From a virus, in IMG/VR virus record IMGVR_UViG_3300047408_000067, positions 1 through 64,000 of that record: a DNA stretch of 64,000 nt; one strand, 5' to 3'. A program made the position numbers and the translations under genes. Of this stretch, positions 9,172 to 46,171 are shown one piece after another. A model generated the notes under the pieces. The model was not told the origin of the DNA. It ran no database searches and was given only the letters and a program-made list of their open reading frames with translations. Within the stretch, counting starts at the first letter, position 1; every line of letters begins with the position of its first letter.

Positions 9172-9429
9172 AGGGTTTCATCCGCGCCGCGTGATATAGG
9201 TGTGCGGCGCAAAAACAAGATAACCGCATCTCAGAATGGCGGAGGCATTATTGGCGCTTGCGCATTGTGCTAATGGCGGAGGTTAGCACCATATGTTGTA
9301 TGCCTTCCGCCTGGACAGCGCCACCGCGTTATCAAATGCAAGCGCCGCCGAGATGCAAGCGCCAGCATTGTTTGTAAAACGGCGTTAGTCGAATCACAAC
9401 CGAATCTCAATGTCAAGTCGGCAGCGTTA
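9172..9429. other. Intergenic DNA upstream of the island gene
   Basis: About 260 bases of TGGCGC-style sequence with no convincing gene or promoter. It separates the island genes from the repeat region. Confidence 0.4.
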
Positions 9430-9444
9430 GCATATGCTTACTCA

Positions 9445-9628
9445 ATCAAGCGATTGATATTTACACCGTTGTAACGCAAGCGTTGTATGTCTGTTACTCG
9501 ATCAAGCGATTGATTGGCACTGCTAGCACACCACACCAGCTAAGCGCAAGTAAAGCGCCGCCGCCGACCGATATGTTGTATGCAAAATAGAATATATTCT
9601 GTAAGCGCCGCTCGATCAATCGCTTGAT
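9445..9628. repeat. Three 14-bp near-palindromic iterons
   Basis: ATCAAGCGATTGAT occurs at 9445-9458 and 9501-9514, and its complement at 9615-9628. Each is preceded by CTC(A/G)-like sequence. Near-palindromic spaced copies look like protein-binding sites of an origin or partition system. Confidence 0.65.
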
Positions 9629-9721
9629 TGATTGCCTGCGCCAGCGAGTTTTCAGTCTTTTCCGAAAGATCGGAAACGTCGTAACCCGCGGAAAGCGCAA
9701 GAATGCCGGAAGTGTCGGAAG

Positions 9722-9798
9722 TTTCGGAAATTTCCGAAATTTCGGACGTTTCGCAAGCGTCGGACATTTCGGAAATTTCCGAAATTTCGGACGTTTCG
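9722..9798. repeat. Two identical 32-bp repeats with internal palindrome
   Basis: Positions 9722-9753 and 9767-9798 are identical over 32 bp, with a 45-bp period. Each contains the palindrome TTTCGGAAATTTCCGAAA and the extension TTTCGGACG. Partial copies (GGAAGTTTCGG, ACGTTTCGGAAACGG) flank them. Centromere-like or origin iteron structure. Confidence 0.75.
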
Positions 9799-9890
9799 GA
9801 AACGGAAAAAACCCTCCCCAGAAACTACCGTCTTTCTGGGGTTTCGGGCCAGAATTACAGAAACTACCGTCCCTCTGGGACTCGCGGCCA

Positions 9891-9948
9891 GATCGCGATC
9901 TGTGGATCGGGATCAGTAGGAGAGAGGTCAGGGATCGGGATCGCGATC
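9891..9948. promoter_or_regulatory. GATC cluster (7 in 58 bp)
   Basis: GATC at 9891, 9897, 9905, 9911, 9933, 9939 and 9945, mostly as (G/C)GGATC or GCGATC. Such density resembles Dam-site clusters at bacterial and phage origins. Confidence 0.5.
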
Positions 9949-10258
9949 AATATGAAACTACCGTCCCTCCTGTCATTCTGGCCAGAACTGAAGGAATAAG
10001 TAGCAATATAAAGGGCGAAAGTACCGTCTTCTAGCAGATTCTGGCCAGATTTAGACGCTTATCATAGCTAGAGGGAGAGACTCGCACACCCAACCACTAT
10101 ATAGACTAGAATTTTCAGGTTGATTTGACTAAGAACATTGCTACTTCACTGCATGCTACTAACCATAACACTGAGGGACTAGGTAGGGACCGACCTCTTT
10201 CGCGACGACTTACAGATCAGATGCCGCCCGCGGAACGCGACCTTTACATGGTCGGATA

Positions 10259-10294
10259 TCTAGACGTGGGGTCTAGACGGGGGGTATCTAGACG
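10259..10294. repeat. Three TCTAGACG repeats followed by G-runs
   Basis: TCTAGACG at 10259, 10272 and 10287, each followed by G(T)GGGG. A related GGTATCTAG lies at 10411-10425. Confidence 0.5.
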
Positions 10295-10516
10295 GGGTAT
10301 GGTCTCAAATCTAATGCAATTACTTCAGGGGCAATGTGCAAGAAACCTATGGCGAGACGCGTTAGTCTTGAATGCCACAGAGGGTTGATTGCAATATCCA
10401 GCAGGGGGGTATCTAGTGTGGTTTCCAGTTTCCTTCCTACCAAGCGACCTATTTGTACTGTGGGTAGTAGGCCTGAGAGTACCATCTTTCTAGGAAGTCT
10501 GGCCAGATTTTGGCGT

Positions 10517-10807
10517 TTACTGAGTAGTAGCTTCCGCCCGCACAACAGCGTTTGCGTCCACAAGGGTTAGGTTCTTGACCCTACATGTAATCCACACCTT
10601 GGCGATGTGTAGTTCCCGCATGCGGATCAGGTATTGCCCACACTTGAAAACATACCAGAGGCCCTCCTCTTCAAATATCTGATAGCCGTAGTAGGCTATT
10701 GTCCCCTGCGCTTCGTTGTAGAAACCCGCCAGGACCGCTTGCCTGTAGATTTCCAGACGCGTGGCCTCATTACGTAGCGCCTCAGTTGTACTGATAATGC
10801 CAGCCAT
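10517..10807 (-). CDS. Hypothetical protein, 96 aa
   Basis: Starts MAGIISTTEALRNEATRLEI at ATG 10807 with GAGGG four bases upstream; an upstream in-frame ATG at 10822 lies only 2 bases from the -10 box. An N-terminal helix is followed by an alternating segment (GTIAYYGYQIFEEEGLWYVF) that looks beta-rich. First gene right of the repeat region. No family recognised. Confidence 0.6.
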   Translation of the reverse strand: MAGIISTTEALRNEATRLEIYRQAVLAGFYNEAQGTIAYYGYQIFEEEGLWYVFKCGQYLIRMRELHIAKVWITCRVKNLTLVDANAVVRAEATTQ

Positions 10808-10824
10808 AGTGCCCTCGTGCATGA

Positions 10825-10830
10825 ATTATA
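10825..10830 (-). promoter_or_regulatory. Extended -10 promoter
   Basis: Minus strand TGGTATAAT, an extended -10 box without a good -35; serves the 10517-10807 gene. Confidence 0.5.
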
Positions 10831-10851
10831 CCATTTTCCCCATATCTACTT

Positions 10852-11268
10852 TTAGTTCCTCAGATCACCGCAATCTTGCCCACACATGCAGTTGGTCGCG
10901 CGGTAGGGGTAAAAGAGGCCAGGCATTCCAGGCTCTGATTTCTTGTCAAACTTCTCGGAATTGCACCCGTCGCAAATCATAAGCAATCCAGCCTTGATTT
11001 CCTCAGGGTCACCACACATTCCCGCCTTGCACAACGGGCAAGGAATAAGTCCCAGTGGTGGACTGTGGCACTCACATTCACAAATCTGTGGCTGAGCACT
11101 GTGGTCGCAGCAGGTGTTGGCTTCTGGGGGAGCTTGGCACTCCCCACAGTTGTACGCCCGAAAACCGACGTGGCAATCGCTGCAATACCACTTGAACTTC
11201 CCACAGGTGGGGCACGCGAGCCGCGTAAGGCTCCCGTCGTAGTGGCACGCGGTGCAGAAGTTATCCAT
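10852..11268 (-). CDS. Multi-zinc-finger protein, more than 20 Cys
   Basis: 138 residues from MDNFCTACHYDGSL at 11268. At least seven CxxC-type pairs (CTAC, CPTC, CSDC, CGEC, CECEC, CPLC, CDGC, CMCGQDC) spread along the whole chain suggest several zinc ribbons and little else. It probably binds nucleic acid or a host protein through zinc-stabilised loops; exact role unknown. An AAGGG ribosome site precedes the start, which overlaps the previous gene by 8 bases. Confidence 0.65.
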   Translation of the reverse strand: MDNFCTACHYDGSLTRLACPTCGKFKWYCSDCHVGFRAYNCGECQAPPEANTCCDHSAQPQICECECHSPPLGLIPCPLCKAGMCGDPEEIKAGLLMICDGCNSEKFDKKSEPGMPGLFYPYRATNCMCGQDCGDLRN

Positions 11269-29577: not shown

Positions 29578-29835
29578 TTAGTAGTCTCTAGGGATCATGC
29601 CAGGAATCTCTTCAGGGTCCTGAGGGCGTTCACGAGCCAGTTCTATTGTGACGGCCCCATCCTTGCGGATGGTAGCAGCATTGCTCATCCTGGTCCACTT
29701 CGTGGTGAGCTTCGAGTACTCGTCTTCACTCACGTAACCGAATATACGTATCGCTTCGATTATAGACAGTACATCGTTCTCAGCACACGCCTGCTGGACC
29801 ATCTTCAAGAACGGAGCTAAACGGTCTCTAGCCAT
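29578..29835 (-). CDS. Hypothetical helical protein, 85 aa
   Basis: MARDRLAPFLKMVQQACAEN, coupled to the TS-fold gene by a 19-base overlap. May act with it. Unrecognised. Confidence 0.55.
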   Translation of the reverse strand: MARDRLAPFLKMVQQACAENDVLSIIEAIRIFGYVSEDEYSKLTTKWTRMSNAATIRKDGAVTIELARERPQDPEEIPGMIPRDY

Positions 29836-30983
29836 TTACGTACCTGTTCATAGGGTACCCCGTAGGATGATAGTTCTAGATACGCTGCTTGAATCAGGTT
29901 CGAATACTTCTCTGGGTCTTTGTTCCAACGGTACTGACAGAAGTTACGCATCATCGGTGCCCTGAGCTCTGGATACTCAGGCAGACCTTCGAATGCTCTT
30001 TCGTCGTCGTGTTGCTTGAAGTCACGGTACGCCTGCAACGTTTGTATCACAGCCCGCCAGTACGGACCTATCACGTTCTCCAATCGTTTGAAGTCGTCGT
30101 GGTGGTACTCTATCTGTTCGCGGATGTTGCGCTCTGCCCTGGTTAGCTCAGTGGCAACTAGCGGACCAGTCTTCATCATTGGCGGTGTGGCTTCGAAATA
30201 CTGGTACAAGTCAAACGGCTTGACGTCTTCGCACTCTCGGTACTTTTCCCGATACACGTGGAAGCTGTCCTGCACTATGAACATATGTCCCATTGGCACA
30301 TGCAATGACGCAGCCACCCACTCCTGGACGTGGCTCCACTGCATAACGTTGTACGGTATCCCCCATACCGCATCGTTGCTACGAATGATTTGCATCCAGT
30401 CCAGCCTGCCTTCTCTTATCATGGCATGGGCATAGACGTTGCAAGCTCTGTCATTTGTCTGGGCCTGGTAGTTATCCCAATACGGGTGGCTGAGAACAAT
30501 ACTAGCCTGTCTGCTGTCGGGGTCTGCCACCAGGGTCTGGATTACATGCTCAAGCTGGTCTATTCCAGAATAATCAAGGCTCTTCCTAGCACCGTAGTCA
30601 TAATGGCGCATTCTATCCCCATACGCCGCATTGAAACCAACTACATCACGCTGCCAATGGGGTGTACCTCTTGGGCCATCACCCTGGATGTCGATGATGC
30701 TACTGTTGTAGAAGGCCAGCGCCTGAGCATCATTCTGCCCCGTGATAATATGCATCGCTTCAACAAGGGCAAACGGCAGATTGATCATTCGACCCATGCA
30801 GGTCGTAACACGCTTTCGTGGGTCCAATATAAGAGCCGTGGTGGGGTGTAGTTCCCTCGTCGTCTTACCCCTTGGAGAGGTCTCGGTACCTTTTGCCATG
30901 AGGGTCTTACAGATGTCGGCGTAGTAGTCGTTTACACCCACTGCCGAGAAGTGCCATGCCTGGGGAATATCAGTTATTGTCAT
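29817..30983 (-). CDS. Thymidylate synthase-fold enzyme, probable dUMP hydroxymethylase
   Basis: 388 residues, longer than bacterial ThyA (about 264). The active-site Cys is at 181 (NDRACNVYAH), followed by IIRSNDAVWGIPYNVMQW (Arg201, Asp204, Asn212) and DSFHVY (His242, Tyr244), the canonical nucleotide-binding positions. Asn212 aligns with the residue that makes ThyA select dUMP (Asp in dCMP hydroxymethylases). It lacks the ThyA PCH tripeptide around the Cys. It could be a thymidylate synthase or, more likely beside a hypermodification operon, a dUMP hydroxymethylase making 5-hmdUMP. Both use methylene-tetrahydrofolate. Preceded by its own promoter at 31004-31033. Confidence 0.8.
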   Translation of the reverse strand: MTITDIPQAWHFSAVGVNDYYADICKTLMAKGTETSPRGKTTRELHPTTALILDPRKRVTTCMGRMINLPFALVEAMHIITGQNDAQALAFYNSSIIDIQGDGPRGTPHWQRDVVGFNAAYGDRMRHYDYGARKSLDYSGIDQLEHVIQTLVADPDSRQASIVLSHPYWDNYQAQTNDRACNVYAHAMIREGRLDWMQIIRSNDAVWGIPYNVMQWSHVQEWVAASLHVPMGHMFIVQDSFHVYREKYRECEDVKPFDLYQYFEATPPMMKTGPLVATELTRAERNIREQIEYHHDDFKRLENVIGPYWRAVIQTLQAYRDFKQHDDERAFEGLPEYPELRAPMMRNFCQYRWNKDPEKYSNLIQAAYLELSSYGVPYEQVRKWLETV

Positions 30984-37717: not shown

Positions 37718-40700
37718 CTACTTCGGTATCGGGTACTTCGCATCTTCGAACACAATGCTGTTCCTGTCAACTTGTCGCTTGCCATACACCAGAACGACTC
37801 GTCCTTTGAACAGATTAGCGCCATGTTGTTCCCACCATTTCGGAAACACCACCACGTCCCAGGTACCCAACCCGTCGTATTTGACCTGGACGAAACCCAT
37901 CTTGTAACCATTCTTCGTAGTGATTTCACGTACCCTATCCACTTGCCCGCCAACCCAACACCATTTATCCTGAGAGCTTGTTAGGGACTTCAGGTTCAAG
38001 GGCCTGCGAACCTTGCGGTCTAGAACAACGCGGTATTGATCTATGGGGTGGCTAGTCACATACGTACCCAAAAGTTCAAGCTCGGTTTGTCCTCGGTCTT
38101 CGTCTCCCTGTGTGCCAATGGTTTCAAAGGCACCTACTCTGCGTAATAGTTCAATGACGCGGACGTTGCATCTTCGTCGTGTTACTGTCCTCCTCAAATG
38201 TTCCTCGGAGGTGAATGGCCTGTTCTCTACTAGCTCAGCGCAGGCTGTAACCCCTACACCCTTTATAGCAGTCAGGCCGTAGCGGATGCCACGTTTACCT
38301 TCCACGACAAATCCTGAACCTGACTTGTTTACGTCGGGTGGAAGGAAGCTAAGTCCAAAGAATAACTTCGCCTCGTCTATGTAGACAGGGTAGTCATCCT
38401 TATTGGCATAGCTCAGCAGGGTACAGAAAAACTGTGCTGGATAGTGTGTCTTGAGCCACGCTGTCTGGTACGCTAGTTTCGCGTATGCTGTCGCGTGGGC
38501 GCGGTTGAAGCCGTACCCTCGGTAGTTCCATATCATGTCCCATATCTTTGTGGCTATTTCTAGGGTGCAACCGTTGTGCAATGCCCCTTGGGCTGCTCCC
38601 TTGGATTTGCCACTGAGCTTGTCGTAGAGTTCGCCCCCATTGAAGAACAGTGGCTTGAGTTCGTCCCATATGTCACCCTTCTTATACTTGATGGCCTCTT
38701 TCAGCTCGTCTACAAGGTGGTGATCGAATCCTCCGATTTGAAGTCCAATCTCCATGACTTGTTCCTGATATAGAACAACCCCCTGCGGTAAGATACGCCT
38801 GAGCCGTTTGTCTGGTAGCCTACGCCTGAGGTCTGTAGTTGCACCATCACGGCCTTCTCTATACTGCTCCACGAACTGGTTAGCACCACCGCGCCCGAGG
38901 GCCATGACAGCAATAAGGTCCTCAAAGCTCTGGAGTTGTAAATCTCGAACAACCTGCCTGGAAGTACCACCTTCAACCTGGAATACTCCCGAGCACGCAC
39001 CTCTATTGAGAGTGGCCCAAACCGCTGGATCCTCGTACTCATACATCTCCGCAAATGGATCTTCCCCTATCAGATCAATGCAGTCTTGTATGACATCCAG
39101 TGTAGTCAGGCTCAGGATATCAAACTTCACCACACCTAGCCGCTTGAGACCGTCCATATCATACTGAGTCACTACAGCCGCTTGACCACGCCCCTGTCCA
39201 CGCCCAACCATCATCGTTGGGACCAGTTTGCGTAGGTCGAACGCTTGGTCTGCAATAACTATGCCAGCAGCATGCTTGCCTTCGCCTGTGATGAGGTCCT
39301 GAGCTGTCGTAGCCCACTCATAAAAGCTAGGGTAACTAACCATAGCCCCCTTTAGTACAGGGTGTAGATGCTCGTCTTGAAGCAGTTCCTTTAGGTCGCC
39401 ACTAGCCTTCAGGTTGACGATGAGTGCTGCATCTGGCAGAGACTTACTTGCCGCAAATTGCTCGTTGCGCGGATACCCCAACGCCCCCAGGATGCGTTGT
39501 ACTGTGCTCCGTGGGCCACCCCTGCCGAACGTACCTACTCGTTGGGATTGGTACGGTGCTTGATTATATCTGCTAAGTAGGTATTTGACGACTTCTTCGA
39601 TCCTGCTGTGCGGGAAATCAACATCGAAGTCCGGGAGGCTTGGGCGCGCCGGATTGAGAGCACGCTCAAACATAAGATCATACCGCACAGGATCCACATC
39701 AACAATGCCCATAAGATAGGCTGCGAGTACCCCCGCCATACTGCCACGGCCAGGGCCGACACGAATCCCACGAGACCTAGCCCAATCAATATAGTCGCGA
39801 ACAATAAGAAACTCTTCTTCGAACGTACTGCCGAAGATGACGCCAAGCTCGTATTGTAGACGAGTCCGGTACGTCTCAATATCCTTTGCCAGCCCTCCAC
39901 GTCTCTCCAGCACTCGCAACCTCTTTTCGCAGATTGCGCGCATATAGTCAGCAGACGATACTTCCGTATTCTCTCTTGGAGCAACTGGGATGTGCCAGCT
40001 TCTTTGCTCCAGTTCTGGGATACTGAGCTGTATATCGTCTGTGTACTCTCGTATAGTGCGCTGGCTAGCTGCCCATACTGCGGGTTGGTCTGCCCAGAGT
40101 GCTCGCATTTCAGACGTTGTTTTGAGATGATATCCTGAGCCATCAAAGTGGAATCTGGTCGAATCCCTCCAAAGGGACATCGTCTGGCATGCCAGCCATA
40201 TGTCGTGTACCGAATGGTGCGATGCTTCAACGTAATGGCTGTCGTTGGTGATGACCAGTGGGAACCCGTACTTGTCGTGCCACCTGATAAGCCTGTTGTT
40301 GACCTTCTCCTGGTCATCGTTAGCCCGCCTGTCGCCAGTGTTCTTCAGGTTATAGTCATGCCGCTGTAGCTCGAGATAGAAGTACGGGAACAGTTCCCTG
40401 AAATACTGAGCATACTGGAGGGCCGTAGCGTTCTGGTTGGCTAGGATTAGCTGCGGTATTGGACCATTGAGACAAGTCGAGCTGGCGATAAGGTGTCGTC
40501 GGTCTTTCCGCGGTATTGCTTCCAGCGTACTATAATCGACACGAGGCTTATAATAGAAGTGGCTAGGATCGTTCGCGGTACTGCTAAGTTCGCACAGTAC
40601 CTCGTACCCTCGTCTGTCACGAGCAAGCAGTACCAGATGGTGCCGCCTAGGACCCTCTTTCTTGCCGGTCTCAGGATCAACTGTTCTGGTACGGTCAGTA

Positions 40701-40921
40701 CAGTCATCGCAAAGATAGAATTCCTGCCCCACAATAGGTCGAACGTCAGCCTTTCGGCACGCCTGGTAAAACTCAGGAACTCCAGACATGCGTCCATGAT
40801 CTGTAATTGCGAGAGCTGACTGCCCATCATCTTTGGCTTTCTGGACCAGATCCGGTATGCGTGATAGCCCGTCTAGCACGCTATACTCTGTGTGGTTGTG
40901 TAGGTGAACGTATTTACTCAT
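37718..40921 (-). CDS. dnaE: DNA polymerase III alpha subunit (DnaE/PolC-like)
   Basis: 1067 residues from MSKYVHLHNHTEYSVLDGLS. N-terminal PHP domain (HLHNHTEYS, ITDHGRM), polymerase palm with GPGRGSMAGVLAAYLMGIVD and the catalytic LPDFDVDFPHSR, VKFDILSLTTLDVIQD, ACSGVFQVEG and a fingers/HhH region (HATAYAKLAYQTAWLKTHYP). A C-terminal OB-like domain (WCWVGGQVDRVREITTKNGY) follows. This is a complete C-family replicase of phage type, slightly shorter than bacterial DnaE. The start overlaps the preceding gene by 8 bases; an upstream extension to 41083 is not supported. Confidence 0.93.
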   Translation of the reverse strand: MSKYVHLHNHTEYSVLDGLSRIPDLVQKAKDDGQSALAITDHGRMSGVPEFYQACRKADVRPIVGQEFYLCDDCTDRTRTVDPETGKKEGPRRHHLVLLARDRRGYEVLCELSSTANDPSHFYYKPRVDYSTLEAIPRKDRRHLIASSTCLNGPIPQLILANQNATALQYAQYFRELFPYFYLELQRHDYNLKNTGDRRANDDQEKVNNRLIRWHDKYGFPLVITNDSHYVEASHHSVHDIWLACQTMSLWRDSTRFHFDGSGYHLKTTSEMRALWADQPAVWAASQRTIREYTDDIQLSIPELEQRSWHIPVAPRENTEVSSADYMRAICEKRLRVLERRGGLAKDIETYRTRLQYELGVIFGSTFEEEFLIVRDYIDWARSRGIRVGPGRGSMAGVLAAYLMGIVDVDPVRYDLMFERALNPARPSLPDFDVDFPHSRIEEVVKYLLSRYNQAPYQSQRVGTFGRGGPRSTVQRILGALGYPRNEQFAASKSLPDAALIVNLKASGDLKELLQDEHLHPVLKGAMVSYPSFYEWATTAQDLITGEGKHAAGIVIADQAFDLRKLVPTMMVGRGQGRGQAAVVTQYDMDGLKRLGVVKFDILSLTTLDVIQDCIDLIGEDPFAEMYEYEDPAVWATLNRGACSGVFQVEGGTSRQVVRDLQLQSFEDLIAVMALGRGGANQFVEQYREGRDGATTDLRRRLPDKRLRRILPQGVVLYQEQVMEIGLQIGGFDHHLVDELKEAIKYKKGDIWDELKPLFFNGGELYDKLSGKSKGAAQGALHNGCTLEIATKIWDMIWNYRGYGFNRAHATAYAKLAYQTAWLKTHYPAQFFCTLLSYANKDDYPVYIDEAKLFFGLSFLPPDVNKSGSGFVVEGKRGIRYGLTAIKGVGVTACAELVENRPFTSEEHLRRTVTRRRCNVRVIELLRRVGAFETIGTQGDEDRGQTELELLGTYVTSHPIDQYRVVLDRKVRRPLNLKSLTSSQDKWCWVGGQVDRVREITTKNGYKMGFVQVKYDGLGTWDVVVFPKWWEQHGANLFKGRVVLVYGKRQVDRNSIVFEDAKYPIPK

Positions 40922-41267
40922 GGGGCCAAGACGCTGCTTCCTCTTGCGTAGCATCACGAGACGGTGCCTTGGTTGCTCTACTTTGGCTGCCGCCCATAGT
41001 ATATTGTACCTTATCGCCACCTGCGGATGCACACCTGTACGCATGAGGCATCGGGACCTGCTCGTCCAAGAACATCCACGCACTGCACTCCACGCAGGCA
41101 GCAGATGGACGCACTAGATTCTGGTGGCTCACTGACTCAGTACCAATTTGCAGATACTGAAGGCAGTGGTTACACCAGATCTTACCCTTGGGGGCGTCTT
41201 CTCTTGGCTGGAGTATACTTCCTGGGGTGTATCTTTCGTGCAGCAAGTAGCTCCCTGGCTTGTTCAT
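40914..41267 (-). CDS. Zinc-ribbon protein upstream of dnaE
   Basis: 117 residues from MNKPGSYLLHERYTPGSILQ: CNHCLQYLQI ... CVECSAWMFL. Overlaps the previous gene by 85 bases (+1) and dnaE by 8. Basic Ser/Thr-rich C-terminus. Unrecognised. Confidence 0.5.
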   Translation of the reverse strand: MNKPGSYLLHERYTPGSILQPREDAPKGKIWCNHCLQYLQIGTESVSHQNLVRPSAACVECSAWMFLDEQVPMPHAYRCASAGGDKVQYTMGGSQSRATKAPSRDATQEEAASWPHE

Positions 41268-41382
41268 TATCACTGGTAAGAAAGAGTCCTGTTGTGGGAT
41301 CGACATAGCCCTCTATTCCTCGCGCTTTTAGTTGCTGGTCAACGAACTCGGACGGTAACATCAAGCCATTGGGAGTAGGCAT
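41182..41382 (-). CDS. Hypothetical protein, 66 aa
   Basis: MPTPNGLMLPSEFVDQQLKA; start overlaps the previous stop (TGATG) with GGGGTGGTG upstream. Helical with basic tail (KIHPRKYTPAKRRRPQG). Unrecognised. Confidence 0.55.
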   Translation of the reverse strand: MPTPNGLMLPSEFVDQQLKARGIEGYVDPTTGLFLTSDNEQARELLAARKIHPRKYTPAKRRRPQG

Positions 41383-41741
41383 CACCACCCCCATCGCATA
41401 ACGGTAACCCAAGCGTAGGTTCCGTAAGCTTTCTCTACGTTCTCTATGCCCCATGCGTAGCTTGGTGCCCACACATCTACTTGGTACTTGCTGAGATAAC
41501 CAGTGTCTTCACACGTGACTACCCAATCGTCCTCTACGAATTTGAGCTGAGTACCAGCAGGAAAGTAGCTTCCGCAAGCCGCCGCACCGAGATGGGTTTG
41601 GTTGCCCCATCGCATCGTGCCACGGACATTATAGAACGTCAGTCGGACGTGTTCCTGCCACAAGCCTTCGTCATCTGCATGCGCTATAGGCGTGACTGCG
41701 GATAACATGATAGCGAGCAGGGCTGCGCGCAAAACTGCCAT
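41382..41741 (-). CDS. Secreted 3D/RlpA-like cell-wall protein
   Basis: 119 residues. Signal peptide MAVLRAALLAIMLSAVTPIA HA, then LTFYNVRGTMRWGNQTHLGA, FPAGTQLKFVEDDWVVTCED TG and YQVDVWAP: the double-psi beta-barrel/3D pattern (T-x-Y ... G ... DTG ... DVW) of lytic wall proteins such as RlpA and MltA relatives. It could cut or bind peptidoglycan in the host envelope. ATGGC begins 6 bases after the -10 box, so leaderless. It shares no overlap with the modification genes. Confidence 0.7.
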   Translation of the reverse strand: MAVLRAALLAIMLSAVTPIAHADDEGLWQEHVRLTFYNVRGTMRWGNQTHLGAAACGSYFPAGTQLKFVEDDWVVTCEDTGYLSKYQVDVWAPSYAWGIENVEKAYGTYAWVTVMRWGW

Positions 41742-41747
41742 GTAGGC

Positions 41748-41776
41748 AGTGTAACATTTCTGTAACTAGGATGCAG
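41748..41776 (-). promoter_or_regulatory. Leaderless-class promoter of the secreted protein
   Basis: Minus strand CTGCAT, 17 bp, TACACT; ATGGC 6 bases downstream. Confidence 0.5.
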
Positions 41777-42692
41777 GTGTGTACTTACGAGTAGCGGATC
41801 TACTAGGTGTGCCATCCGGATTGGCATGGTATCTGGCACGAGAGTACTTCTGGAACTCACACAGGGAGTGTTCTACGCCGCGCAGGGTCATCTGGTATCC
41901 TGGCCAGACTTGATGCCATTCAACCAGTCTATCAATCCCCTCAATAAAGGTCTCCTGCCTAGCCTGTAGAAACGCGATATAATCTTCCCATTTGATTCCA
42001 GAGTTACGCGCACCCCAGATCCAGAGAATCCCACGCTTACACCCAGGTCCGGCGTTGACCCAATCATTCTCACTAAAGTCCACAAGTCTAGAATAGTTGA
42101 CGTCAATGGCAAGCTCGTACGCCAAGAACCGCCCGAACCCTTGTGTGTCATTGAAGATCTGCCATACCTGTTTCAGCGACTTCGCAGACGTAATAGCCCG
42201 TAGTAGTGCTGGTGTTTGCTTTTGTAGCCTGCCCACTAGCCAGCAGATGTTCCTGATTTTGTCTGGAAAGCCACCAAACTTCACGCCAGTAACAGTAAAG
42301 GCATCCGTAAACACCCGACTGCCGTGATTCTCGTAGGCGTTTAGATATCTGGCTGCCCGCTCCCAATCCCAAGCTCCCCACCGTGTCATCTTGCAGCGCA
42401 ACCACAGGAACCTGAAGGTATCAATGTCGTTGAACAGTCTGTACACCATGATGGCGAACAGCATGTCTTTGTCATCCTGTATCCGCAGTATGTTGCGGAT
42501 GAGGAAGATGGTACCTTTGTCCAGTTCTCTGTAGACGTTGGTGAAGAAGTATTGCTTCAGTACAGGGTCGACAGTCCAAGGGGCTGGCATTTGGAGTTCC
42601 ATGCGTCTGTAGTAGATTGCTTGTCTTTCAACAACAAAGTTCCAGAACGCAGCCATCTTGTCTTGTCGGTAGGCAGGCAGTATGTTGGGCAT
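41766..42692 (-). CDS. Thymidine-hypermodification pyrophosphorylase/kinase-helical family protein
   Basis: 308 residues. TVDPVLKQYFF TNVYRELDKG (residues 40-60), later GFGRFLAYELAIDVNYSRLV and AGPGCKRGILWIWGAR, match the helical family annotated as hmdU DNA kinase helical domain or alpha-glutamyl/putrescinyl-thymine pyrophosphorylase (aGPT-Pplase), a DNA-glycosylase-like fold that acts on pyrophosphorylated hmdU in DNA during thymidine hypermodification. The exact clade is undetermined; no separate P-loop kinase was seen in this window. TAATG overlap with the radical SAM stop. Confidence 0.75.
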   Translation of the reverse strand: MPNILPAYRQDKMAAFWNFVVERQAIYYRRMELQMPAPWTVDPVLKQYFFTNVYRELDKGTIFLIRNILRIQDDKDMLFAIMVYRLFNDIDTFRFLWLRCKMTRWGAWDWERAARYLNAYENHGSRVFTDAFTVTGVKFGGFPDKIRNICWLVGRLQKQTPALLRAITSAKSLKQVWQIFNDTQGFGRFLAYELAIDVNYSRLVDFSENDWVNAGPGCKRGILWIWGARNSGIKWEDYIAFLQARQETFIEGIDRLVEWHQVWPGYQMTLRGVEHSLCEFQKYSRARYHANPDGTPSRSATRKYTPAS

Positions 42693-43711
42693 TAGATGAA
42701 TGCTAGATGGGACTTATCGTCCGCAAGCTCCTCGTTCATGACGTCGTGGTAGACGTGGAATCTGCAGTCATAGAAGTCACATTCTGGAATGATAACTCGC
42801 TGCATGGCTGCGCGGTGTGATTCACTATACCAGAGATCGCGGAATCCATTACCTCCATTTGTGGAGAGTGCGCCAATGGAGATATCCTCAATACGGTCCT
42901 GATAGTAACAGCACACCCACACTGTGCCGAGTGCGTCGATAACAGTGTGTAGCGGGGAAAGCCAACATTGTCCATTCTGATGAGTCTTAGCAATACCACC
43001 GAAGACTCTTCCAGGGTATCTAGCTCCAAGCTCCTGAATGGTATCTTGAATAGCCCGCTTGTCTTCCTCAGGTAGGAGTTCAGGATCGTCGTTGCAATGG
43101 CGCTTCGCCTTGATGCTAACGTAGTCAACTCCGGCATCTAGTATCTCCTCCGTGAGGTATTCGACTGCTGCCACACTGCTGCTACCAAGCAGGATTTTCC
43201 CACCAATCCTACAACTAGAGTTCCTACTATCACGTTCCTGGACAATTCGTCGAACGTTGTCCAGTTGGTTGACAGTATAAACAGAGACCCGAATGTAGCG
43301 GCTTCCAGCATAAGCCAGAACATGAACACAAGCATCTGGGCGGGTTCCGTTCGTGATCATCCCGAATTGGAGATTATTGCTAGCGACGATATCAACAAGA
43401 TCGCGAAACCTAGGGTGAAGAGTAGGTTCTCCACCTCCGGAAAACTCAAGGGACTCGCCGCCCATCTCGCTAAAATCACGAACGAAACTATCAAAGACGC
43501 TGACACCAAGGCTTGCAGGTCGTGCATTCTCAGCGTTAGAGATGCAGCCAAAACAGCGCATATTGCAACTGTACGTAGGATATACGATCGCCATTGTGGG
43601 GGCAACCATCTCATCGCGCTTGAGCTTGACCGCATCTTTGCGAAAGCTGAGTATCTTGGTGCGTAGATCTACTGGTGCGTATTGCGGAATCACCCGAATG
43701 CCTCCAACCAT
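42692..43711 (-). CDS. Radical SAM/SPASM-like enzyme
   Basis: 339 residues. Canonical SAM cluster CxxxCxxC (YSCNMRCFGC, Cys 49, 53, 56), GGEP motif in EFSGGGEPTLHPRF, and a C-terminal Cys-rich region (GQCWLSPLHTVIDALGTVWV then CCYYQD and CDFYDCRFHVYH) like SPASM or auxiliary clusters. Radical SAM isomerases and coupling enzymes occur in phage thymidine hypermodification pathways. Overlaps the glycosyltransferase by 22 bases. Confidence 0.85.
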   Translation of the reverse strand: MVGGIRVIPQYAPVDLRTKILSFRKDAVKLKRDEMVAPTMAIVYPTYSCNMRCFGCISNAENARPASLGVSVFDSFVRDFSEMGGESLEFSGGGEPTLHPRFRDLVDIVASNNLQFGMITNGTRPDACVHVLAYAGSRYIRVSVYTVNQLDNVRRIVQERDSRNSSCRIGGKILLGSSSVAAVEYLTEEILDAGVDYVSIKAKRHCNDDPELLPEEDKRAIQDTIQELGARYPGRVFGGIAKTHQNGQCWLSPLHTVIDALGTVWVCCYYQDRIEDISIGALSTNGGNGFRDLWYSESHRAAMQRVIIPECDFYDCRFHVYHDVMNEELADDKSHLAFI

Positions 43712-45153
43712 GCCCTTGCCACGCCGCTAACAAACTTCATCCATCTCCCGTCTTGTGTAGGTTGAGAAGACAAGACTTGCAGCAGGGCTTCGCTACCCAT
43801 AGCCGCAATTTCTGCCTGTGCCTCTTCCTCTAGTTCTTCTTCGTCTTCCTCTGGCTCAACGTCTGCCACTGCTAGTGCGGCGACTGGTATGTTTCGGGAA
43901 GTGAATACCTCTTGACGCTCAACCATTTCGATTTCAGGAATGGGATCATCACAGACGTTATCCCAAAAGCTAGGGCTAACGACACCAGGGTGATGTCCAT
44001 ACTCCAGTCCGTTTTCAAGGTGGTCGAGTATCGTTGCCGCGTGTACCCTGGCATCACTGTACTCCCGCACAAACTCGATTGCTCTGTAGGCTATGCGCCG
44101 TTGAAGGCGTACATCTGCCATCAATTCGTTGAGTCTTTCGGCGATGCCTTGAGAAGAAGGTGGTAGTCCCCACGTAACGTCGACCTGGGACAGCGGACTC
44201 CACCTGTGTTCTTGTACTCTTGTGGAGACGGCAGATACACAGCCATACAGCATGGCTTCGAGCATGACGCAGGACGTCTGGCCGTCGAACCTCTGTCCGC
44301 CAATAGAGCCGCTGAGATCCACGCTAACGTTATGCTGGCGATAAATACCAGGAAGTTCTGCTGGAAGCTGCGCCCCCCAATATTGGTGATCAGCTCGCCC
44401 ACGGCCACGGCGCTGAGCAACGTGGTCAAGACCAATGCCATCTTTCCAACCCGCACCCACCTTGTTCCTGGCATTATGGTACTCGATGCCAGCGTTGTAC
44501 AGATCAACAGGATACTCAATGTTGGGTAGGGCCTTGATGAACGGATAGATACCTTTCCATTTCTTCCATTGCGGCATCCAGCAAATTGCGCCAGTTTTGT
44601 CTGGTAAGCACAAACCCGCCTCTCTGGTATCTAGGGGGGTTGGCAGAAACACGAAGTGTCCGGGCAGCCTCGCCAGGGAGTCGTACTTGGATTGATAGCA
44701 CGTAAACATGTGAAGGCTCACCAAGTCCGACACTTGACGATACCACGGGTAGTAGCTGTCCCACAGGTTGTCGTGAATCATCACCATGATTGGCAGGCCC
44801 GCGTCGGCTGCTTCCTGATACAGCATCATCCACGACATATCACCAGTGTTGGACTTGATATCATGTGGGCATGGCAGCATGAACATGACCACGTCGTAGT
44901 CGCGCAGTAGTTGACGATACTGTCTCCTGGCCTCGTCTCCCTTGTAGGCCAGTTGCCTAGCGGGTAGCCTGTAGTACCTGTGGTTGACCATCGTAGGGGC
45001 GTCTGGACTAAGGCTGCGCACCTTACCTGCCCTGCTAGCCCAATAGTAGTCGAACGTGCAACCGATAGCCTCTAGACCATACTGCAACCCTTCGACTATG
45101 CGGTTTATCCCACCACGCTCTATGATTTCAAAGTCAATTACCAGGAATCTCAT
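43690..45153 (-). CDS. GT-B (GT4-like) glycosyltransferase
   Basis: 487 residues. RGGINRIVEGLQYGLEAIGC is the N-terminal Rossmann start; QTSCVMLEAMLYGCVSAVST and the EHRWSPLSQVDV region are the C-terminal donor domain with the E-(x)7-E-like helix. An acidic insert EPEEDEEELEEEAQAEIAAM near residue 430 resembles the acidic linkers of other proteins here. It may attach a sugar to a modified base (as in phages with glucosylated hmdU/hmdC) or to a surface polymer. It overlaps its neighbours by 4 and 22 bases. Confidence 0.8.
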   Translation of the reverse strand: MRFLVIDFEIIERGGINRIVEGLQYGLEAIGCTFDYYWASRAGKVRSLSPDAPTMVNHRYYRLPARQLAYKGDEARRQYRQLLRDYDVVMFMLPCPHDIKSNTGDMSWMMLYQEAADAGLPIMVMIHDNLWDSYYPWYRQVSDLVSLHMFTCYQSKYDSLARLPGHFVFLPTPLDTREAGLCLPDKTGAICWMPQWKKWKGIYPFIKALPNIEYPVDLYNAGIEYHNARNKVGAGWKDGIGLDHVAQRRGRGRADHQYWGAQLPAELPGIYRQHNVSVDLSGSIGGQRFDGQTSCVMLEAMLYGCVSAVSTRVQEHRWSPLSQVDVTWGLPPSSQGIAERLNELMADVRLQRRIAYRAIEFVREYSDARVHAATILDHLENGLEYGHHPGVVSPSFWDNVCDDPIPEIEMVERQEVFTSRNIPVAALAVADVEPEEDEEELEEEAQAEIAAMGSEALLQVLSSQPTQDGRWMKFVSGVARAWLEAFG

Positions 45154-45695
45154 ACGGGTAGTTTATCACCTATTGGGGTCTGGTTCAAGGCGACTTCCTG
45201 CCGTATATCGATGTCCTGAACCTGGTACAGTAGATAGTCAGCAGCGGACTCGAGGCTGTCCAGCACTACAAGACTCATAGCCCGCCATGCCGCATAGTCT
45301 ACGATCCCGCCCGTGAGATCCACAGTGATAACAGGTTTGCCCCAAGCATAAGCAACACCGATTTCGTGAGCAGAGTCAATTGACGTGTATCCTGGGTAGA
45401 TGCAAGATAGCACAAAGTCACTATCGTGGATGAGACGTAGGTTGCGAGGAATGTAGAAGCCAGCTCTGCTGGTAGCCACCCCATCGCGATAAGCATTCGG
45501 GGCACGAGGATGAAGCCACAGTACACTACCAACGAGCCGATCGATATCCGCACGAGGGCGAGTATAATCCGGAGGGACTTTCTGCGCGGCCCATACGGCT
45601 CCAATGGTTTCACGTACCAGATCCCTGTACAGCGTCTCTAACTGGTGTCGCCATCCAACCTGCATAGTGCCCGACGTGTATGGGCTGACTATCAC
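45150..45695 (-). CDS. Nucleoside 2-deoxyribosyltransferase-like protein
   Basis: 181 residues. IHDSDFVLSCIYPGYTSIDS with AHEIGVAYAWGKPVITVDLT matches the NDT fold (acidic and nucleophile region, then EIGVAYAWGKPV). Phage homologs exchange bases on deoxyribose or hydrolyse nucleotides, sometimes named dCMP/dTMP hydrolase-like. GTGA overlap with the previous gene, ATGA with the next. Fits nucleotide-pool control before base modification. Confidence 0.75.
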   Translation of the reverse strand: MIVSPYTSGTMQVGWRHQLETLYRDLVRETIGAVWAAQKVPPDYTRPRADIDRLVGSVLWLHPRAPNAYRDGVATSRAGFYIPRNLRLIHDSDFVLSCIYPGYTSIDSAHEIGVAYAWGKPVITVDLTGGIVDYAAWRAMSLVVLDSLESAADYLLYQVQDIDIRQEVALNQTPIGDKLPV

Positions 45696-46120
45696 TCCTG
45701 CTTGTCCCTTCTATCGTCATCATCGTCGACGAAATTGAGACCAAACCACGCCAAGCACATCATGGTCCGGATAAGGACGTCGTAAAACGTGCCCGTCAGT
45801 TTGTCCTTATCCCACTTCATGACAGCGCCACTTTCGCTAGCAGAATCAAGACGGTACAGCTTGTCTTTCAGGTCTACCAATGCCGTGATAGGCCCATCTT
45901 TCTGCCACGCGTCTTTGTACTGCTGGTTTTTCTGATACACCAGCGTGTCGTAATCTATCAGCGCCATTGCTAACTGTGAATTGATCTCGGTCAGCCACAG
46001 TTGTGACTCATAGCGCTCGTCCGTCGGGTCTAGCCCAAGGACGTGCTCTGCGAACTGGTCCAGTAGCCACCCTTGCTTGATGTCTACCCGTTGCATGTCT
46101 GCTGGTGTAACGATCTTCAC
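45692..46120 (-). CDS. Nmad1/DUF1599-like protein
   Basis: 142 residues from GTG 46120 (GGAGGGCAATC upstream): MKIVTPADMQRVDIKQGWLL. VYQKNQQYKDAWQKDGPITA LVDLKDKLYRLD followed by KLTGTFYDVLIRTMMCLAW matches the DUF1599/Nmad1 pattern (YGDxW ... DIxxKxxRL), predicted in nucleotide-modification clusters. First gene of the five-gene cassette. Confidence 0.65.
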   Translation of the reverse strand: MKIVTPADMQRVDIKQGWLLDQFAEHVLGLDPTDERYESQLWLTEINSQLAMALIDYDTLVYQKNQQYKDAWQKDGPITALVDLKDKLYRLDSASESGAVMKWDKDKLTGTFYDVLIRTMMCLAWFGLNFVDDDDDRRDKQE

Positions 46121-46133
46121 GATTGCCCTCCAG

Positions 46134-46171
46134 ATAAACAAACGGGGCAGGTACCGTGCCTACCCACCCCG
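46134..46171 (-). terminator. Rho-independent terminator
   Basis: Minus strand CGGGG ... GGTA ... TACC ... CCCCG, then TTTGTTTAT; follows the DUF932-like gene and separates it from the modification cassette. Confidence 0.65.

Follow-up and report, generated by a model that had tools for sequence, protein, structure and literature searches.

Gene content of the cassette

The window, that is, the whole stretch of DNA analysed here, comprises bases 1-64000 (64,000 nucleotides) of a 90,615-bp uncultured phage record and carries a Mu-type portal and a GpA-type terminase at its left end. Five minus-strand ORFs run from position 46120 to 41766 and overlap one another by 4, 4, 22 and 1 bp, an arrangement of tightly overlapping co-directional genes described in the original prediction, which was made from the letters alone and whose quoted motifs are all found in the sequence. 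Complete or truncated at contig ends, the operon occurs in at least eight other IMG/VR contigs: all five genes are present with their order kept in L002, L003, L093 (a 90,205-bp contig), L096 and the more distant L099, and parts of the cassette are present in L013, L014, L098 and L105, which are cut by contig ends. The cassette genes are under purifying selection (pN/pS of 0.15-0.36 relative to L003 and L093). When cultured phages were searched with genes 1-4, genes 1, 2 and 3 gave zero matches and gene 4 gave only weak radical SAM (rSAM) matches, to uncultured-phage records.

Gene 1 (45692-46120, minus strand) most likely starts at the GTG at 46120, which has GGAGG upstream; the TTG at 46141, where the ORF opens, is a less probable start. 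Its small product carries the YGxSW..KxDR signature of an NMAD-like family found beside TS or HEL genes (the latter described below) in other cassettes, with invariant Y75, K94 and R97 and near-invariant W79 common to 29 relatives. These relatives include an SBSphiC protein and the C-terminus of the LuckyBarnes TS; in SBSphiC the family lies next to TS, and in LuckyBarnes gp41 and L019 it forms a fusion with TS. Judged by these residues and neighbours, the protein is a member of a small family that other hmdU-type cassettes also carry. It has no match in Pfam, and DUF1599 (PF07659) is touched by only one of 30 family members (E=0.017), so that we rejected the DUF1599 label as a proven assignment. 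Gene 2 (45150-45695, minus strand) encodes a predicted nucleoside deoxyribosyltransferase or N-hydrolase fold of the NDT/DNPH1 kind. Its match to Nuc_deoxyrib_tr (PF05014; E=2e-4, 21.8 bits) falls below the curated cut-off of 28.8, its profile finds NDT (0.007) and DNPH1/Rcl (0.08) in the PDB, and D93 and E111 are invariant in five relatives.

Gene 3 (43690-45153, minus strand) encodes a GT4-like, predicted retaining glycosyltransferase (GT) with a disordered C-terminal tail. By Pfam it matches only Glyco_trans_1_2, at 0.12, but a profile of gene 3 and its relatives leads to GT4 enzymes (PimA at 6e-4). Foldseek searches with its AF2 model, which is of moderate confidence (pLDDT 68, tail disordered), return GT4 enzymes at E of about 1e-12. 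T4 alpha-glucosyltransferase (AGT), including its HMU-DNA complexes, is among the highest TM-scores (0.63-0.67 by target), although many GT4 enzymes match the model as well as AGT does. Profile and model together identify the product as a GT-B fold with GT4 similarity. Gene 3 and AGT thus have the GT-B fold in common, and the acceptor of AGT is a DNA hydroxymethylpyrimidine, but AGT acts without a HEL partner and is absent from the sequence-profile matches of gene 3. As a single query, gene 3 matches the GTs of nine unfused kinase-free HEL cassettes and, at 7e-4, a GT-HEL fusion in L051.

Gene 4 (42692-43711, minus strand) encodes a radical SAM/SPASM-like enzyme with the CX3CX2C motif CNMRCFGC. 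It matches Radical_SAM (PF04055) at 3e-12 and SPASM at 2.7e-4, the latter a borderline score (21.6 bits against a cut-off of 21.5), and C49, C53, C56, C249, C267, C268, C311 and C316 are invariant in eight relatives. The best solved relative by profile is DesII (1e-9), and the cytosylglucuronate decarboxylase BlsE (2e-6) is found among several other rSAM enzymes. The nearest non-orthologous rSAM is carried by L060. Cellular relatives include a homologue in a Zixibacteria MAG, near flagellar-type genes, and a Phycisphaerae homologue, neither of them informative about substrate.

Gene 5 (41766-42692, minus strand) is a stand-alone HMUDK_hel/aGPT-Pplase1 domain (PF18723), here called HEL. Its identity is unambiguous (E=7.2e-68, 229 bits against a cut-off of 25, positions 4-275 of 281); against PF18724 it reaches only 0.03. 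Across phages, R23, R55, D58, F189, D197, G215, G217, G221, C278, E279, K282 and Y283 are invariant in 81/81 HEL sequences, whichever partner accompanies them, and the alignment positions that distinguish HELs with a GT from those with a kinase fall outside this invariant core. Sequence searches of HEL against the PDB gave no matches. For the AF2 model, built from the 81-sequence alignment (pLDDT 92.4), the best solved relative by Foldseek is PUGT (8z2n; prob 0.99, E 0.09); the HhH DNA glycosylases MjOGG and AGOG come next, with weak scores (prob 0.15-0.63, E>1). PUGT, which is gp46 of PaMx11 and a 5-PmdU glycinyltransferase, shares its overall fold with HEL but is a transferase on phosphorylated hmdU, and HEL constitutes a distinct Pfam family. 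The HEL segment GFGRFLAYELAID, followed by NAGPGCKRG, appears to resemble the HhH and catalytic-Asp region of glycosylases, with a conserved G-P-G where the glycosylases carry the catalytic Asp.

The TS-fold gene (29817-30983, minus strand) lies 11 kb from the cassette. Its product matches PF00303 at 1e-21, and its best PDB match is the CMP 5-hydroxymethylase MilA (2e-17), with true TS at 7e-9. Its segment RSNDAVWGIPYN retains the Asn that a uracil substrate would call for, as do about 60 other HEL-associated TS proteins, and the protein is 63-64% conserved in G001 and G086, both of which carry the cassette. It is a predicted dUMP 5-hydroxymethylase and would supply hmdU; its nearest solved relative is MilA, and the residues are not decisive between hydroxymethylation and methylation.

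These assignments largely agree with the original prediction, which had proposed a TS-fold enzyme at 29817, a radical SAM enzyme, a GT-B glycosyltransferase and a member of the hmdU kinase-helical/aGPT-Pplase family. Its NDT-like reading of gene 2 is retained at profile level, with a score below the Pfam cut-off, and its DUF1599/Nmad1 reading of gene 1 was not confirmed.

Partners of HEL across phages

We sampled the best 80 of at least 539 IMG/VR HEL loci together with cultured phages, scanned their neighbours and then the whole records with profiles, and collapsed the HELs at 80% identity into 74 representatives; a GT was counted as either TAGT (PF20691) or GT-B. A GT without a kinase accompanied 38 of the 74, a kinase without a GT 23, neither 13 and both 0 (Fisher p = 2.8e-10), numbers that do not amount to a census because the sampled HELs are those nearest gene 5, and in which each 'no kinase' or 'no GT' is only as good as its contig because a few contigs are short. 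One exception is found among the collapsed near-copies: in the L034/L038 cluster, L038 has a kinase as well as a partial TAGT match, and counting this cluster as having both gives a Fisher p of 3.3e-9. The HEL tree shows at least 11 changes of partner; of the independent pairs, about 7/9 are opposite in partner and 0 the same. The sampled HEL loci thus fall into two contexts that exclude each other, and the more frequent of them is a GT with HEL in the absence of a kinase, a combination that the original prediction, which included the radical SAM enzyme in it, had considered unusual.

Both kinds of partner are also found fused to HEL. L051 encodes a natural GT-B::HEL fusion of 837 aa (PF00534 + PF18723), parallel to the kinase::HEL fusions in SBSphiC, L025 and L033. 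The GT family of gene 3 accompanies HEL in cassettes without NDT or rSAM as well, and some HEL cassettes (L060, L067, L040 and L078) contain an Asp-type, dCMP-like TS.

Among cultured phages, the Brevibacterium phage LuckyBarnes (gp38-gp41) and the Microbacterium phages Hasitha and Carostasia likewise combine a stand-alone HEL with TS and a TAGT-type glycosyltransferase, and their whole records are without a 5-hmdU kinase. They differ from the present cassette in having TAGT instead of GT-B and no adjoining rSAM, and in Hasitha and Carostasia a thymidylate kinase is annotated. In T-even relatives, TAGT is thought to put a second glucose on glucosyl-hmC (PMC13390438). In pelagiphages, TS with aG/PT-PPlase1, sometimes with a putative glucosyltransferase, has been reported and interpreted as thymidine hypermodification (PMC9599517). 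Those modules are similar to ours in placing HEL beside TS and a glycosyltransferase, but the enzyme is given there as a putative beta-glucosyl-HMC-alpha-glucosyltransferase, and the part of that paper considered here reports no rSAM or NDT and neither partner exclusivity nor a fusion. To judge by that name, which belongs to TAGT-type enzymes rather than GT-B, the pelagiphage GT is probably of the TAGT type. The co-location of GT, TS and HEL is thus already noted in pelagiphages, and what is new is the partner exclusivity, the GT-B::HEL fusion and the rSAM/NDT version of the cassette. Our literature search, with the central hypermodification papers lying outside it, returned no report of a GT-HEL pairing replacing the kinase and none of an rSAM/NDT/GT-B/HEL operon.

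Kinase absence and alternative readings

The 5-hmdU DNA kinases, and hmdU as a common intermediate, are described in PMC6449724. We built a kinase profile from the small P-loop proteins adjoining HEL in YuA and other phages, which corresponds to the Pfam 5-hmdU DNA kinase family (PF18748). In the 90,615-bp record, this profile gave no match at E<=10 among the ORFs and none by whole-record search, a small gap being possible because the record breaks off within a structural gene. As a control, the profile recovers the distant ViI kinase, encoded far from its HEL, at 4e-25, and therefore works at a distance. It gave no match in the other GT-cassette records searched, and where a strict P-loop motif falls in a recognisable enzyme gene of this genome, that gene encodes a helicase. 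The lack of a P-loop kinase, observed in the original prediction for the genes adjacent to HEL, thus extends across the 90.6-kb record by both profile and motif searches. Profiles for ADDT, PLP and photolyase-type rSAM enzymes also had no match in this record. Compared with the 5-hmdU kinase systems (PF18748 + PF18723; YuA/M6, ViI and SBSphiC/SP10-type), the present phage has a HEL with all twelve invariant core residues, a TS-fold predicted hmdU synthase and the NMAD-like small protein found in several of them, but it has a glycosyltransferase in the kinase's place and none of the kinase, ADDT, PLP or photolyase-type rSAM components.

The M6, ViI and SP10 pathways run via phosphorylated hmdU made by the kinase. 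Because that kinase is absent from the 90.6-kb record of this phage, and the rSAM is not of the M6/YuA photolyase type, the analogy to these phages drawn in the original prediction is unlikely to extend to the chemistry, and amino hypermodification of the M6/ViI type was rejected as the main reading for want of kinase, ADDT and PLP matches. HEL might nevertheless serve a host-encoded or unrecognised kinase, with the rSAM rearranging an amino-acid adduct and the GT incidental: 5-hmdU DNA kinases contain HEL as their aGPT-Pplase1 domain, the kinase that serves some HELs (ViI, L038) is encoded far away, and a thymidylate-kinase::HEL fusion in L017 indicates that other kinases can partner HEL. The profile and P-loop results over 90.6 kb, the near-exclusivity of kinase and GT as HEL partners and the existence of a GT::HEL fusion all speak against this, and we consider it unlikely.

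It is rather improbable that the modified base is instead cytosine, with HEL presenting 5-hmC to a GT that acts as T4 AGT does on hmC. The resemblance of the GT model to AGT fits that reading, as do the Asp-type, dCMP-like TS enzymes of the four cassettes named above, one of which (L060) has the rSAM nearest to gene 4 outside its orthologs, but the TS of this phage, like about 60 other HEL-associated TS proteins, has the uracil-type Asn. Alternatively, the genes might make a free glycosylated nucleoside to which HEL is unrelated. The mildiomycin and blasticidin families MilA, MilB, MilC and MilG/BlsE comprise a TS-fold hydroxymethylase, an NDT-fold hydrolase, a GT and an rSAM decarboxylase, a set that the genes here parallel, and the TS is nearest MilA and the rSAM matches BlsE. 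Gene 5, however, belongs to a DNA-acting family and is coupled to the rSAM gene by the 1-bp overlap, GTs of the gene 3 family accompany HEL also where NDT and rSAM are missing, and the PF05014 match is weak, such that a free product seems very improbable. The likeness to mildiomycin and blasticidin biosynthesis is an analogy that supports nucleoside-sugar chemistry and is not evidence of pathway homology.

A proposed kinase-free glycosylation system

The cassette probably encodes a kinase-free, HEL-dependent DNA glycosylation system, a reading drawn from homology, gene fusion, partner exclusivity and fold. The glycosylated or otherwise decorated thymidine envisaged in the original prediction is accordingly upheld in part: it is the reading best supported by HEL, the GT fold, the exclusivity, the fusion and the TS Asn, while the function itself we infer. 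In the proposed pathway, the TS-fold enzyme would convert dUMP to 5-hydroxymethyl-dUMP, which would be incorporated into the phage DNA and replace its thymidine partly or wholly. The nucleotide pool would be the target of gene 1 and of gene 2, the latter being NDT/DNPH1-like and perhaps hydrolysing competing dTMP. HEL, with its PUGT-type and HhH DNA glycosylase-like fold, would bind DNA and hold a flipped-out hmdU base, and the GT-B enzyme, rather than a P-loop kinase, would transfer a sugar to the hydroxymethyl oxygen of the presented base. The four lines of evidence above suggest these steps of hmdU synthesis, base-holding and transfer. Gene 4 might modify the sugar before its transfer, like DesII, whose substrate is a TDP-sugar, or at the nucleoside level, like BlsE; this step is a lead from distant homology only, because many rSAM enzymes match the gene 4 profile over the core that they have in common.

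A broader and more tentative possibility is that HEL is an interchangeable base-presenting adaptor, a DNA-glycosylase-like module holding a flipped 5-hydroxymethylpyrimidine for its co-encoded enzyme, be it kinase, GT-B or TAGT, that many phage DNA glycosyltransferases are two-component enzymes, and that the sugar here is additionally rebuilt by the rSAM into an undescribed DNA sugar. If these proposals are right, 'helical domain of 5-hmdU kinase' would be a misnomer, given that the sampled loci pair HEL with GTs more often than with kinases, and for the same reason HEL-based annotations of aminated thymidine would often be wrong. Glycosylated thymidine (or cytosine) would then be predicted in many uncultured phages, in LuckyBarnes and in Neferthena-type Microbacterium phages, a radical-SAM-edited sugar might occur on DNA, and the modular two-component enzymes could be useful for labelling hmdU in DNA.

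Partners of the HEL domain

In the comparison contig L017, HEL (PF18723, 7e-116) shares one ORF (9212-10969) with a Thymidylate-kinase-like domain (PF02223, 1e-17), and a radical-SAM gene comes next after this fusion. Judged from these domain matches, the predicted partner of HEL in L017 is a kinase of another family than the 5-hmdU kinase. Only one HEL record, L038 (G032:9669-10597), combines a 5-hmdU kinase with a partial TAGT match, and these two lie side by side.

Variation in the TS-fold enzyme

In four HEL cassettes (L060:1216-4996, L067:8887-14391, L040 and L078), the TS-fold enzyme carries Asp (e.g. GLPYD) at the position of the Asn of dUMP enzymes. This residue suggests dCMP hydroxymethylation, which in turn suggests that HEL acts on 5-hmC there. 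The L060 cassette also holds the closest non-orthologous relative of gene 4 (radical SAM). Elsewhere, TS and a gene 1-like (NMAD) domain are fused in one protein (LuckyBarnes gp41 and L019:12227-13987), which ties this unassigned gene 1-like family to hydroxymethylation.

A cellular relative and downstream ORFs

A cellular homolog of gene 4 (31% identity) lies directly after csrA/fliW-like flagellar genes in a Zixibacteria MAG (L106:7836-9011) and possibly has a role in flagellin-sugar chemistry.

Directly downstream of gene 5 in the window, a small ORF (41382-41741; 119 aa) with a signal-peptide-like N-terminus has no PHROG match and is 46% conserved in L002 and L003, which carry the same cassette. 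A large ORF farther downstream (37718-41083), which reads as a DnaE-type replicative polymerase (PHP plus polymerase III alpha), is 86% conserved in these two contigs.
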